Source: Fibrobacter sp. UWB11 (GTDB lineage: Bacteria; Fibrobacterota; Fibrobacteria; Fibrobacterales; Fibrobacteraceae). From it: a DNA stretch of 64,000 bases. Both the position numbers and the translations under genes were made by a program. Positions 45,104 through 50,199 of the stretch are shown here, in pieces (within the stretch, counting starts at the first letter, position 1; each line of letters starts with the position of its first letter). Where the stretch lies: the NCBI RefSeq assembly GCF_900143015.1, contig NZ_FSRT01000001.1:248001-312000 (forward strand), in the 5' to 3' direction. The notes below the pieces were generated by a model. It did no database searches. It was given only the letters and a program-made list of their open reading frames with translations, and had not been told where the DNA came from.

Positions 45104-47434
45104 ATGATTTTTACTGTCAAAAAGCGCGACGGCCGCGAGATGCCGTTCAACATCGAAAAGATTGCAGACGCTGTAATCAAGGCGTTTAGAGCCTCTGGCG
45201 AATTGGATGAACAGATAAAGGCTTCCCAAGCTCAGATGAATTTGCTCGGAAGCGATGACCTTCTGACAAACGTTGCTCTTAAGGTTGCTGCCGAAGCCGT
45301 TGGCCATCTCGAATCCGAAAACAAGACCAAGCCGGACATCGAAGAAATCCAGGATGCTGTTGAAAAGGCTTTGACCGAAGGCGGTTACGCCGATACCGCC
45401 AAGAGCTATATCTTGTACCGTGCCGAACGTACCCGCGTACGTGAAGTCAACACCCGCCTCATGCAGACGCTTCATGACATTACGTTCAGCTCTGCCAAGG
45501 AATCCGACCTCAAGCGCGAAAACGCCAATATCGATGGCGATACCGCCATGGGCACCATGCTCAAGTACGGTTCCGAATCCGCTAAGCACTTCTACACGAT
45601 GATGATGCTCAAGCCGGAACACAGCCGCGCCCACATGGATGGTGACATTCACATCCATGACCTCGACTTCTATTCTCTTACGATGACCTGCTGCCAGATT
45701 GACCTCATTAAGTTGTTCAAGAACGGCTTCAACACAGGTCACGGTCACTTGCGTGAACCGAAGGATATCCGCAGCTACGCCGCTTTGGCCGCTATCGCCA
45801 TTCAGAGTAACCAGAACGACCAGCACGGTGGACAGTCCGTGCCGAACTTTGATTACGCCATGGCAAACGGTGTGCGCATCACGTACCGCAAGGCTTACCT
45901 TTCGAACATGGTCAAGGCTCTCATGCTCTTGACGGGCAAGACCGAAGAAGAAATCCAGCCGGTGGTGAAAAAGCTCCACGGCGAAATGGCTGAAATGGGC
46001 ATGGTCGCAACGCTCGTGCCGAATGAAAAGTTCCAGACAACTGAAGCCCACGAACTTTCCAAAACTTATGACGCCGAAACGGTAAAGAACGCCCAGAAGT
46101 TTGCCGAAAAGATGGCTTACGAAGAAACCGACAAGGCAACGTTCCAGGCAATGGAAGCTTTTGTCCACAACTTGAACTCCATGCACAGCCGCGCTGGTGC
46201 CCAGACTCCGTTCTCTAGCATCAACTATGGTATGTGCACGGAACCGGAAGCCCGCATGGTCATGAAGAACTTGCTCCTCACGACCGAAGAAGGCCTCGGC
46301 GGTGGTGAAACGGCTATCTTCCCGATCCAGATTTTCCGCGTCAAGGACGGCATCAACCTCAATCCGGGCGAACCGAACTACGACTTGTTCAAGCTCGCCT
46401 GCCGCGTGAGTGCCAAGCGCCTGTTCCCGAACTTTAGCTTCCAGGACGCTCCGTACAACCTGCAGTACTACAAGCCGGGTCATCCGGAAACCGAAATTTC
46501 GTACATGGGCTGCCGTACCCGCGTGATTGGCAACCATTACGACCCGAGCCGTGAAATCTCTTACGGCCGTGGCAACTTGAGCTTTACCTCGATTAACCTC
46601 CCGCGTATTGCCATCAAGATGAAGTCCGTGGACCTGTTCTTCAAGGAACTCGACCGCATGCTTCAGCTCGTGAGCGACCAGCTCATGGAACGCTTTGCCG
46701 TGCAGAGCCGCCGCAAGGTTAAGAACTTCCCATTCCTCATGGGACAGGGTGTGTGGATTGATTCCGACAAGCTCGGCTGGGAAGATACCGTGGGCGAAGT
46801 CATCAAGCACGGTACGCTCTCCATTGGCTTTATCGGCCTTGCTGAAACATTGGTGATGCTCACGGGCAAGCACCATGGCGAATCCGAAGCTTCCCAGGAA
46901 CTCGGCCTCAAGATTATCGGCCACATGCGCGAATTCTGCGACAAGGAATCCGAACGCCTTGGCCTCAACTTCAGCTTGCTTGCAACACCGGCTGAAGGCC
47001 TCTCGGGCCGTTTTGTGCGCATGGATAAGAAGAAGTTTGGCATTATCCCGGGCGTTACCGACCGCGATTACTACACGAACTCTTTCCACGTGCCGGTCTA
47101 CTACAAGATTTCCGCATTCAAGAAGCTCTCGCTCGAAGCCCCGTACCACGCGCTCACGAACGCTGGTCACATCAGCTACATCGAACTTGATGGCGACCCG
47201 ACGCAGAACCTGGACGCTTTTGAAAAGATCGTGAAGCACATGGCGAAGGTCGGTATCGGTTATGGTTCCATCAACCATCCGGTGGACCGCGACCCGGTTT
47301 GCGGATTTGTGGGTGTGATTGGCGATGTGTGCCCGCGCTGCGGACGTAGTGAAGGCCACGCTATCTCTTGCGAAAAGCTCGAAGAACTTAGAAAGAAATT
47401 CCCTGGAATGCCCGCATTCAGAGGGATCAGATGA
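45104..47434 (+). CDS. nrdD: Anaerobic (class III) ribonucleoside-triphosphate reductase, large part without glycyl-radical motif
   Basis: 776 residues. N-terminal ATP-cone (VKKRDGREMPFNIEKIADAV), then the reductase barrel with MTCCQIDLIKLFKNGFNTGH, YGMCTEPEARMVM, ISYMGCRTRVIGNHY, and a C-terminal zinc site Cys733, Cys743, Cys746, Cys756 (DVCPRCGR). Normally a RxxGYL glycyl-radical motif follows the zinc site in the same chain. Here the chain stops at PAFRGIR (TGA 47432-47434) and the motif is encoded in the next small gene, in another frame with its own ribosome site. Probably works with that peptide and NrdG to make dNTPs anaerobically. Confidence 0.95.
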   Translation: MIFTVKKRDGREMPFNIEKIADAVIKAFRASGELDEQIKASQAQMNLLGSDDLLTNVALKVAAEAVGHLESENKTKPDIEEIQDAVEKALTEGGYADTAKSYILYRAERTRVREVNTRLMQTLHDITFSSAKESDLKRENANIDGDTAMGTMLKYGSESAKHFYTMMMLKPEHSRAHMDGDIHIHDLDFYSLTMTCCQIDLIKLFKNGFNTGHGHLREPKDIRSYAALAAIAIQSNQNDQHGGQSVPNFDYAMANGVRITYRKAYLSNMVKALMLLTGKTEEEIQPVVKKLHGEMAEMGMVATLVPNEKFQTTEAHELSKTYDAETVKNAQKFAEKMAYEETDKATFQAMEAFVHNLNSMHSRAGAQTPFSSINYGMCTEPEARMVMKNLLLTTEEGLGGGETAIFPIQIFRVKDGINLNPGEPNYDLFKLACRVSAKRLFPNFSFQDAPYNLQYYKPGHPETEISYMGCRTRVIGNHYDPSREISYGRGNLSFTSINLPRIAIKMKSVDLFFKELDRMLQLVSDQLMERFAVQSRRKVKNFPFLMGQGVWIDSDKLGWEDTVGEVIKHGTLSIGFIGLAETLVMLTGKHHGESEASQELGLKIIGHMREFCDKESERLGLNFSLLATPAEGLSGRFVRMDKKKFGIIPGVTDRDYYTNSFHVPVYYKISAFKKLSLEAPYHALTNAGHISYIELDGDPTQNLDAFEKIVKHMAKVGIGYGSINHPVDRDPVCGFVGVIGDVCPRCGRSEGHAISCEKLEELRKKFPGMPAFRGIR

Positions 47435-47454
47435 TTTTACAAGGAGTGCAAAAA

Positions 47455-47601
47455 ATGTCTGAAAAAGAAATGTCTCAGTATGGTGAAGGTGTCGGATTCG
47501 AACGCATCCGCCGCATTACAGGTTACCTCGTCGGTACAGTCGACCGCTTCAACAATGCCAAGCGCGCTGAAGTCAACGATCGCGTAAAGCACGGCGTATA
47601 A
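47455..47601 (+). CDS. 48-residue glycyl-radical peptide: C-terminal piece of NrdD as a separate gene
   Basis: Small gene, absent from long-ORF lists, coding for MSEKEMSQYGEGVGFERIRR followed by ITGYLVGTVDRFNNAKRAE and VNDRVKHGV. The part FERIRRITGYLVGT matches the glycyl-radical end of class III NrdD; the radical glycine would be Gly23. AAGGAG at 47441-47446 is eight bases before ATG 47455; an alternative ATG 47431 overlaps the nrdD TGA (ATGA) and gives 56 residues. It ends one base before nrdG. The frame differs from nrdD (+2), so simple stop read-through would not fuse them. By analogy with GrcA/YfiD of pyruvate formate-lyase it may dock as an autonomous radical domain. Confidence 0.85.
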   Translation: MSEKEMSQYGEGVGFERIRRITGYLVGTVDRFNNAKRAEVNDRVKHGV

Positions 47602-47602
47602 G

Positions 47603-48163
47603 ATGGATGAATATCCTCCACTGCGGATTGCAGGGATTGAGCCCGAATCATTCGTGGACGGTCCCGGAATCCGCTTGACTGTGTTTACTCAGGGCTGTCA
47701 CCACAACTGCCCAGGTTGCCAGAATCCGCAGACTCATGATTTTGAGGGCGGACACTTTATCGAGCGCGAAGCGATCATCACGATGATCAAGGAAAATCCG
47801 TTGCTCGATGGCGTGACGTTTAGCGGAGGCGATCCGATGGACCAGGCGGCGGCACTTGTTCCGCTTGCACGCGAAATCAAGGAACGCGGTCTCAATCTCG
47901 TGATTTTCACGGGATACACGTACGAACAGCTGATGAAGCTTACGCCCGAAAAGCCGGAGCTCTTTGAATTGCTCTCGTTTGCGGACATCCTCATCGACGG
48001 TCCGTTTATCATGGCGAAAAAATCGCTGGACATTAAGTTCAGAGGTTCTTGGAACCAGCGCATTATCGATGTGCAAAAGAGCCTTGTCGAAGGCCACGTG
48101 GTCATCCACCAGATTCAATTGGACGAGATGGCGGAACACCCCGACAGGGAATACAATACGTAA
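47603..48163 (+). CDS. nrdG: Anaerobic ribonucleotide reductase activating protein
   Basis: Radical SAM activase that installs the glycyl radical of NrdD. 186 residues. Cluster motif CHHNCPGC (Cys32, Cys36, Cys39), GIEPESFVDGPGIRLTVF before it and TFSGGDPMDQAAAL, the SAM-binding block, after. Starts one base after the glycyl peptide gene; same operon as nrdD, so the two-part reductase and its activase are made together. Confidence 0.95.
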   Translation: MDEYPPLRIAGIEPESFVDGPGIRLTVFTQGCHHNCPGCQNPQTHDFEGGHFIEREAIITMIKENPLLDGVTFSGGDPMDQAAALVPLAREIKERGLNLVIFTGYTYEQLMKLTPEKPELFELLSFADILIDGPFIMAKKSLDIKFRGSWNQRIIDVQKSLVEGHVVIHQIQLDEMAEHPDREYNT

Positions 48164-48315: not shown

Positions 48316-48526
48316 TTAGTATGTAATTTGGAATTTCGATTTTTTAACCTTACATACTAAAATTGATTTTTTGGGGTGTTAGTATGTAATTTTTAGTCGA
48401 AAAATGCTAATACAAGTGATTTTTTTTTGTGAATATTATGTTTTGGAGGCTGATTTCTGTTGTTTTTGTCCGTTTAGTTGGTTTCTTTTACATACTAATT
48501 TTAGAATTTTGACTTTTAGTATGTAT
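48316..48526. repeat. Cluster of five TTAGTATGTAA motifs in both orientations
   Basis: In a very A+T-rich gap, TTAGTATGTAA occurs at 48316-48326, 48379-48389 and (last base changed) 48516-48526, and its reverse complement TTACATACTAA at 48350-48360 and 48488-48498. Opposed copies can pair into hairpins. The spacing is uneven. The whole gap 48164-48780 (617 bases) otherwise holds the nrd terminator, a TAGTTA-rich patch at 48165-48195 and a hairpin at 48656-48677. Confidence 0.75.
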
Positions 48527-48780: not shown

Positions 48781-50199
48781 ATGAGCGCAATAAGATATTC
48801 TTTCGTGGCTGGCGTTGTTGTTATCGCCATGCTTACAGCATGCGGTGACGATGTCCTCAATATAACCGAATTGAGCGAGAAAGCATCTCTCGACATTGTC
48901 GAAAAATACAAGGAACTGCCGAAGTGTGAAGAGTCCGTTTACGGTTCATTGAATTACGTTCAGGATTCTTCGCAAGTATTCGCCTGCACTTCGGATGGCT
49001 GGGTGTCGCTCAAGGGTGAAAAGGGTGCCAAGGGTGACGAAGGCAAGGCCGGTGAAAACGGCAAGAACGGCGAAGACGGCAAGAACGGGGAATCCTGCAC
49101 GACAAAGGCCGTCGAGGGTGGGGTTGAGGTGAGCTGCCCGGGGTCTGAGCCGGTCGTAATCAAGAACGGCGACAAGGGCGCCGACGGCAAGAGCGCTTAC
49201 GAACTTTCGGGAACGGACAAGACGCTGGAAGAATGGCTCGCCTCGCTGAAGGGCAAGGACGGCGAGTCCTGCACGACAAAGGCCGTCGAGGGTGGGGTTG
49301 AGGTGAGTTGCCCGGGGTCTGAGCCGGTCGTAATCAAGAACGGAACGAACGGCGAGAACGGGACGAGTTGCAATATTGTAAGCGACAAGGACGGCGTCGT
49401 TACGATTCAATGTGGCGAAGGTGAAAATGCCAAGACCACTGAACTCCATAAGACCGTGTGCGGCACAAAACCGTTTGACCCTGCAGACAAGTTCTGCTAT
49501 GCGGAGGAATTGTATGACCTGTGCAATGGCGATAAGTACGACCCAGAGCGTCAGTTCTGTGCCAAGTTTAATGACGATGCGAAAATGGAACAGATCTACA
49601 AAATGGTGACTATCGCTCCGGAAGGAACGGTTTACAGCGAGACCTGGATGGCCGAGAACCTGAACTACAAAACAGAGAACAGCTGGTGTGGTGGCGGAAG
49701 TGGAACGACGGAAGGCGATTGTTCTGTTTACGGTCGCCTGTACACGTGGACTTCGGCGGTCGGGAAGACCGAAACGGAGTGCGGTTATGGACAAGAATGC
49801 AATCTGGGCACGGGCGATATCCGCGGAGTCTGCCCCGAAGGCTGGCACCTGCCAAGCCAAGAAGAATGGGAAGACCTGTTTGAGGCTGTTGGCGGTCAAG
49901 TTGTTGGCGGTGAATCGACGACGGCCGGAGCCAAGCTCAAGTCCACAAGCGGCTGGAATGATTATAGAGGAGAAAGCGGCAATGGCTCGGATGCTTTCGG
50001 CTTTTCCGCGTTGCCCGCCGGCGGCAGGAGCAACTATGGCAGTTACGACTACGGAGGCGACTTCGCGATCTTCTGGAGTTCTACTAAGTACGATGTCTAC
50101 TACGCGTACCTCATGAACTTGCGCTACGACCACGAGTATGCGTCCATGATCCCCCTATACAAGTACTACGGGTTTTCAGTTCGTTGTCTCAAGGACTAG
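48781..50199 (+). CDS. FISUMP lipoprotein with collagen-like repeats
   Basis: 472 residues. Lipobox MLTACG (Cys21); residues about 75-105 and 130-185 have collagen-like Gly-x-y triplets (GEKGAKGDEGKAGENGKNGE, GDKGADGKS, GTNGENGT) broken by a twice-repeated module (ESCTTKAVEGGVEVSCPGSE, then PVVIKNG) encoded by a near-identical 87-base DNA repeat. The C-terminal 200 residues are a FISUMP domain (ETWMAENLNY, CPEGWHLPSQEEW, STSGWN, FSALPAGGR, FSVRCLKD). GGGAG lies before ATG 48781. Phage-tail-like collagen modules in bacterial surface proteins form trimers; that is plausible but inferred here. Confidence 0.87.
   Translation: MSAIRYSFVAGVVVIAMLTACGDDVLNITELSEKASLDIVEKYKELPKCEESVYGSLNYVQDSSQVFACTSDGWVSLKGEKGAKGDEGKAGENGKNGEDGKNGESCTTKAVEGGVEVSCPGSEPVVIKNGDKGADGKSAYELSGTDKTLEEWLASLKGKDGESCTTKAVEGGVEVSCPGSEPVVIKNGTNGENGTSCNIVSDKDGVVTIQCGEGENAKTTELHKTVCGTKPFDPADKFCYAEELYDLCNGDKYDPERQFCAKFNDDAKMEQIYKMVTIAPEGTVYSETWMAENLNYKTENSWCGGGSGTTEGDCSVYGRLYTWTSAVGKTETECGYGQECNLGTGDIRGVCPEGWHLPSQEEWEDLFEAVGGQVVGGESTTAGAKLKSTSGWNDYRGESGNGSDAFGFSALPAGGRSNYGSYDYGGDFAIFWSSTKYDVYYAYLMNLRYDHEYASMIPLYKYYGFSVRCLKD
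49082..49342 (+). repeat. Internal duplication of an 87-base segment within the collagen-like gene
   Basis: The segment coding GESCTTKAVEGGVEVSCPGS to KNG is present at about 49085-49169 and 49259-49343 with almost no base differences, implying a recent duplication. Confidence 0.85.

Follow-up and report, generated by a model that had tools for sequence, protein, structure and literature searches.

Our analysis of a 64,000-nucleotide stretch of DNA from Fibrobacter sp. UWB11 (the window) reports on a class III ribonucleotide reductase, NrdD, whose glycyl-radical motif is encoded by a small gene of its own. The split is genuine and conserved, and the two pieces have separate translation signals. 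On the evidence of the genes we put at roughly 0.88 the probability that their products make up a two-piece class III ribonucleotide reductase with the separate peptide as an obligate subunit; the peptide would be obligate because the NrdD body has no radical domain.

Results

The three genes of interest lie in the window in the order nrdD, 48-codon peptide gene and nrdG, and all are read in one direction. The nrdD body gene (45104..47434, forward strand) encodes 776 residues with an ATP-cone, the barrel and the zinc-site cysteines, and in a profile search its product covers positions 1-531 of PF13597 (E = 1.3e-188). Residues 469-473 of the body read GCRTR, which we take to be the finger-loop with its cysteine. 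The flap motif NxN is present as RENAN (residues 138-142) and the HxHD motif as HIHD (residues 183-186), and roles of both in NrdD have been described (PMC11226230). The product ends with CPRCGRSEGHAISCEKLEELRKKFPGMPAFRGIR, followed by the stop codon, and the glycyl-radical motif is absent from the body chain both by reading and in the PF13597 search, whose match stops at position 531. The original prediction was right about this absence, but it placed the end of the frame 20 residues after the zinc site, whereas the stop falls 30 residues past the last zinc-site cysteine. The resulting C-terminal tail (47342..47431, forward strand) has a pattern, GE..S.EKL.ELRKKYP, that is similar across many split NrdDs, and an AlphaFold2 model of a relative's body has a predicted helix within it, at residues 756-765. 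The idea that this tail is a decayed former radical loop was rejected as too weak (shuffle test of the profile score, P = 0.033, in which one row of the split set was unsuitable). The profile search found one NrdD in the genome of the window strain.

The glycyl-radical peptide gene occupies 47455..47601 on the forward strand, from an ATG at 47455 to a TAA at 47599-47601, and encodes MSEKEMSQYGEGVGFERIRRITGYLVGTVDRFNNAKRAEVNDRVKHGV (48 residues, 5.5 kDa). An AAGGAG ribosome-binding site (47441..47446, forward strand) lies eight bases before the ATG, and Gly23, predicted to bear the radical, is encoded at 47521..47523 on the same strand. Scanned from an upstream ATG at 47431, the reading frame matches positions 533-562 of PF13597 (E = 6.9e-8), and the two halves of the profile meet, the body ending at 531 where the peptide takes over at 533; the small gene with its own AAGGAG site is, as had been proposed, the missing end of NrdD. 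Translation from the ATG at 47431 would give a peptide of 56 residues; we place the start at 47455 because only the MS(D/E) start is kept among relatives, whose spacers differ. The gene for the radical-SAM activase NrdG (47603..48163, forward strand; TIGR02491, E = 7.3e-41, above the cut-off) begins, again as predicted, one base past the peptide gene, which ends at 47601. In the AT-rich gap further downstream of nrdG, TTAGTATGTAA occurs four times, counting copies of its complement (48316-48498). The open reading frame at 48781-50199 encodes collagen-like glycine-rich repeats with duplicated SCTTKAVEGGVEVSCPGSEPVVIKNG units and, as a guess by eye, is perhaps a surface lipoprotein.

Conservation of the split had been left to a sequence search, and this search finds it across Fibrobacter, with other genera also carrying the split. 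A separate peptide gene, in one copy each, is present in 77 of the 80 genomes of the genus; in the remaining three, nrdD is cut off by a contig end. At all 77 loci the peptide reading frame is preceded by the nrdD body and an AAGGAG site and followed by nrdG, with the three genes on one strand, so the peptide reading frame is not a chance one. At the 76 loci measured, the spacer from the nrdD stop to the peptide ATG ranges from 20 to 200 nt, and relative frames 0, 1 and 2 of the two pieces occur at 27, 17 and 32 loci. The median dN/dS of the peptide gene is about 0.05 (372 pairs); across the 46 codons compared in 72 distinct DNA sequences, 28 vary only synonymously, 5 are invariant and 13 change the amino acid. 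No variation occurs within the genus at residues 15-28 and 30-34 of the peptide, which include Gly23, Tyr24 and Arg31.

Elsewhere in the family the arrangement differs from genus to genus. In the three genomes of genus g11, nrdD stops at the same point and nrdG comes next, overlapping it in two genomes and separated from it by about 510 nt in the other; in all three the peptide gene lies apart from this pair, on a different contig and behind a helicase gene (DEAD-box type, named by eye). A fused NrdD, with open frames of 768-837 residues, is found in four other genera (g5, g6, g9 and g10). For g2, g3 and g4, which contributed eight of the 20 genomes searched, PF13597 had no match at E 0.001.

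Comparison with the NrdD of Prevotella copri locates the cut. The P. copri structures (PDB 8P23 series) are the top Foldseek matches of a relative's body in the first AlphaFold2 model (E = 7.8e-51), a match that confirms the body only, and the P. copri protein and the window enzyme have in common the ATP-cone, flap, active-site motifs, zinc-site cysteines and an NrdG partner. The peptide aligns to the C-terminal end of P. copri NrdD (E = 4.3e-7), so that its Gly23, Tyr24 and Arg31 correspond to Gly711, Tyr712 and Arg719 (the chain in the structure file is numbered four higher). In the published account of P. copri NrdD, the C-terminal domain comprises the zinc site and then, in the same chain, a buried loop with Gly711; Tyr712 and Arg719 fasten this loop to the NxN flap above the substrate, and binding of dATP makes the radical domain mobile (PMC11226230). 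Because the peptide aligns to the Gly711 stretch while the flap and HxHD motifs lie in the body, the window enzyme, unlike its P. copri counterpart, is cut between the zinc site and the radical loop. At the cut the body has its 30-residue tail, and the peptide begins with a lead of 14 residues.

Profile searches for the large chain of class I and II reductases (PF02867) found none in the genome of the window strain and none in 41 of 41 genomes of the genus; 11 of 14 control genomes matched. The two-piece NrdD is thus probably the cell's only reductase, and if it is the sole source of deoxyribonucleotides, as these absent matches suggest, the two-piece enzyme would have to work.

Genome contigs outside Fibrobacter were scanned with a DNA pattern in which a start signal lies close upstream of the radical motif. 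This pattern selects for stand-alone peptides, and the counts it gives among the matches listed (113 of 119 loci with a stand-alone peptide, four fused and two with none) are not a frequency. The 113 stand-alone loci, again among the matches listed, belong to Bacillota (91), Fibrobacterota (14), Mycoplasmatota (2) and Pseudomonadota (2), with single loci in Planctomycetota, Abditibacteriota, Thermodesulfobacteriota and one unnamed bacterium; Scatolibacter, Massiliimalia and Gemmiger are among the split records that are not marked as metagenome-assembled. Judged from these loci, split NrdD is not Fibrobacter's own and recurs in many gut anaerobes. Among 40 genomes chosen for the peptide, the body ends at PF13597 positions 530-542 in 33, all of which have a separate peptide; nine of these 33 have a fused NrdD of a different kind as well, and in Clostridia and Bacilli the split form is thus often accompanied by a second NrdD. 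Some split-carrying genomes have a second peptide elsewhere, and one has three radical peptides, one of them in the split nrdD operon and two as orphans. In an Anaerostipes metagenome-assembled genome, the part of a split-type nrdD that was matched ahead of the peptide and nrdG is limited to its zinc-site end (locus L105, 3862-3978); fused NrdDs are present elsewhere in that genome, and the locus is either decayed or misassembled.

Two class-level samples were searched in the same connection. The peptide was matched in 124 of 393 genomes of Clostridia, in a first pass that may miss diverged genomes. Ten of these 124 are split, counting the sample's centre (in one, the peptide is at a contig start and nrdD lies outside the view); 13 have a fused NrdD plus an extra reading frame of 96-133 residues, three have only a reading frame of 113-143 residues, and most of the others are fused. 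PF13597 is matched in at least 107 of 149 Bacilli genomes, including a few weak matches that may come from other enzymes, and most of the strong matches listed reach the profile end in one open frame; at least five genomes plus the centre look split, and at least seven have a stand-alone reading frame of 92-108 residues. Fifteen Bacilli loci were read, among which one split locus had escaped the search expression and three gave nothing.

Fused NrdDs may themselves have loose companions. Thirteen Clostridia genomes combine a fused NrdD with a stand-alone protein of about 90-110 residues in which a leader domain, about 50 residues long or longer and often like M.KVNV.GG..S..EI.AY.., precedes the radical motif, and in five of the 13 this extra protein is encoded between nrdD and nrdG. 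The same combination occurs in at least six of the 149 Bacilli genomes, and one further Bacilli genome has the extra protein and no other NrdD match among those listed. Above the cut-off, Pfam recognises only the radical-motif part of the three extra proteins scanned, and for the two scanned against NCBIfam only NrdD models appear, below the cut-off. We regard these proteins as candidates for a GrcA-like spare part of NrdD.

A pattern scan of viral contigs found the radical motif in a reading frame of 49-216 residues at 43 of 44 loci. Within the partial stretches examined, 33 of these 43 loci have no NrdD and ten have one, in a collection that may include host DNA; one of the ten is the terminal part of a fused NrdD that has been interrupted. 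The arrangement resembles the pairing of T4 Y06I with pyruvate formate-lyase. In the Eggerthella phage EL753P1 (locus L279, 3076-3637), nrdD has a tail of the split type and is followed first by a small reading frame and then by a radical peptide; in the record, the motif of this peptide is divided between two frames.

Trees of the body were built from hand-chosen rows, of which 88 and 42 entered, out of 104 bodies of at least 740 residues that could be trimmed. The 88-row body-only tree has ten changes between split and fused states, at least five of them forced by well-supported branches, with two long rows that are maybe misplaced; the 42-row quick tree has nine changes, at least six of them forced. 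A single origin of all split forms was rejected under the model used on the 42-row quick tree (AU p = 4.9e-6). On these trees, the split is a state that arose or was lost repeatedly. In the trees the Fibrobacterota bodies, split and fused alike, group with good support as a single clade, which argues that the gene was inherited within the phylum while its state changed.

Discussion

Our data suggest a model for the two-piece reductase. The NrdD body, which retains the ATP-cone, barrel, active site and zinc site, would receive its radical loop from the 48-residue peptide docking into the barrel in trans. NrdG would place the radical on Gly23 of the peptide, again in trans, and the radical would be handed to the active-site cysteine of the body, as from the C-terminal domain of an ordinary NrdD. 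Docking and activation in trans, and with them the stoichiometry of body and peptide, are what we infer. Two AlphaFold2 runs on a relative's in-frame read-through chain did not place the peptide with confidence: the first gave a good body and a peptide mostly below pLDDT 50, with the peptide region misaligned, and the second, from a shallow alignment of 24 rows, again gave a pLDDT below 50 over most of the peptide.

A detachable radical loop could also be a replaceable one. Trace oxygen cuts glycyl radical chains (PMC4390871), and class III reductase has been called irreversibly inactivated by oxygen (PMC12288474); in the split enzyme an oxygen cut at the glycyl radical would cost only the small peptide, and the 776-residue body could take up a fresh one. 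Peptide exchange and repair after oxygen damage is plausible, and we give it about an even chance. The peptide may instead, without conflict with the two-piece enzyme itself, be an obligate separate subunit with no part in repair, whether through neutral gene fission or as a means of regulation by release of the radical domain or by dosage, a reading to which we assign slightly less than even odds. It gains from the mobility of the P. copri radical domain on dATP binding, through which release could be a regulatory state (PMC11226230), and from the presence of one peptide gene per Fibrobacter genome. On the other side, the repeated switching between split and fused states (at least five to six forced changes) suggests that a loose part may bring an advantage, and so do the extra orphan peptides in some genomes and on viral contigs and the occurrence of a fused NrdD together with an additional stand-alone protein. 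Taken with the NrdD-less viral peptides, the fused-NrdD genomes that have a GrcA-like protein make the idea of a spare part plausible. The broader reading is tentative, a little short of an even bet: anaerobes and phages would repeatedly have made the oxygen-fragile radical domain an exchangeable cartridge, with which the peptide revives an oxygen-cut enzyme and the supply of dNTPs recovers. Under it, and with the same reserve, the obligate subunit of Fibrobacter and many Bacillota, the GrcA-like spare, the orphan copies and the viral-contig peptides would be forms of one cartridge.

The likeness to GrcA/YfiD that was originally drawn holds in part. Like GrcA/YfiD and T4 Y06I, the peptide stands alone as a small protein and bears a radical domain that belongs to a large glycyl radical enzyme, and it matches its partner enzyme (PF13597 533-562). 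GrcA, however, backs up an enzyme whose own chain includes a radical domain. The single NrdD found in the Fibrobacter genome has none; the closer counterpart of GrcA is the extra protein beside a fused NrdD in Clostridia and Bacilli. Pyruvate formate-lyase has known stand-alone radical proteins (PMC8683613), and by that precedent the small reading frame might be purely a backup of the GrcA kind, with the body active alone or with another domain; a body that has no radical motif, in a strain with one NrdD and by profile no class I or II reductase, makes this very improbable. According to the same paper, validation extends to YfiD and Y06I alone, and YfiD-like proteins for other enzymes are treated as speculation (PMC8683613).

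The adjacent frames in the window, whose joined product is a complete NrdD, and the 27 of 76 loci at which both pieces lie in one frame with a stop between them would suit a sequencing or assembly error, a programmed frameshift or a readthrough giving one fused chain, but we consider these ruled out to within a negligible residual chance by the occurrence of all three relative frames, by spacers of up to 200 nt, by the separate AAGGAG site at 77 of 77 genus loci and by the g11 genomes, whose peptide gene on another contig argues against frameshift and error alike. A programmed frameshift gene is expected to have a fixed relative frame and an overlap upstream of the stop, neither of which is found at the 76 loci, and the sole slippery-type heptamer in 47381-47470 lies past the nrdD stop; the original prediction, which had judged a programmed frameshift less likely, is borne out.

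Reductases of other classes also occur as two polypeptides. The class I NrdA of phage Aeh1 is split and reported to be fully functional (PMC2988022), and class II has the pair NrdJa/NrdJb (PMC9669993); both differ from the split NrdD in class and in cut point. The nrdA split has been explained by insertion of mobE, a homing endonuclease gene. The nrdD spacers of 20-200 nt are too short for such a gene, and a split by intein or homing endonuclease is ruled out on the same ground.

Conclusions

Class III reductase in the literature searched is one chain with its own glycyl radical. We found no description of a split NrdD or of an NrdD spare part among the open-licence PMC papers searched, and one may be in print elsewhere. 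The separate radical-domain peptide offers a direct route to study how the radical domain docks and is activated in trans, how dATP controls it and how oxygen damage might be repaired, and the stand-alone proteins described here are genomic candidates for spare parts of another glycyl radical enzyme besides pyruvate formate-lyase. Should phages carry the cartridge, they may use it to keep the host's dNTP supply running; and if the cartridge reading is true, the dNTP supply of the cell would recover after oxygen without NrdD having to be made anew.
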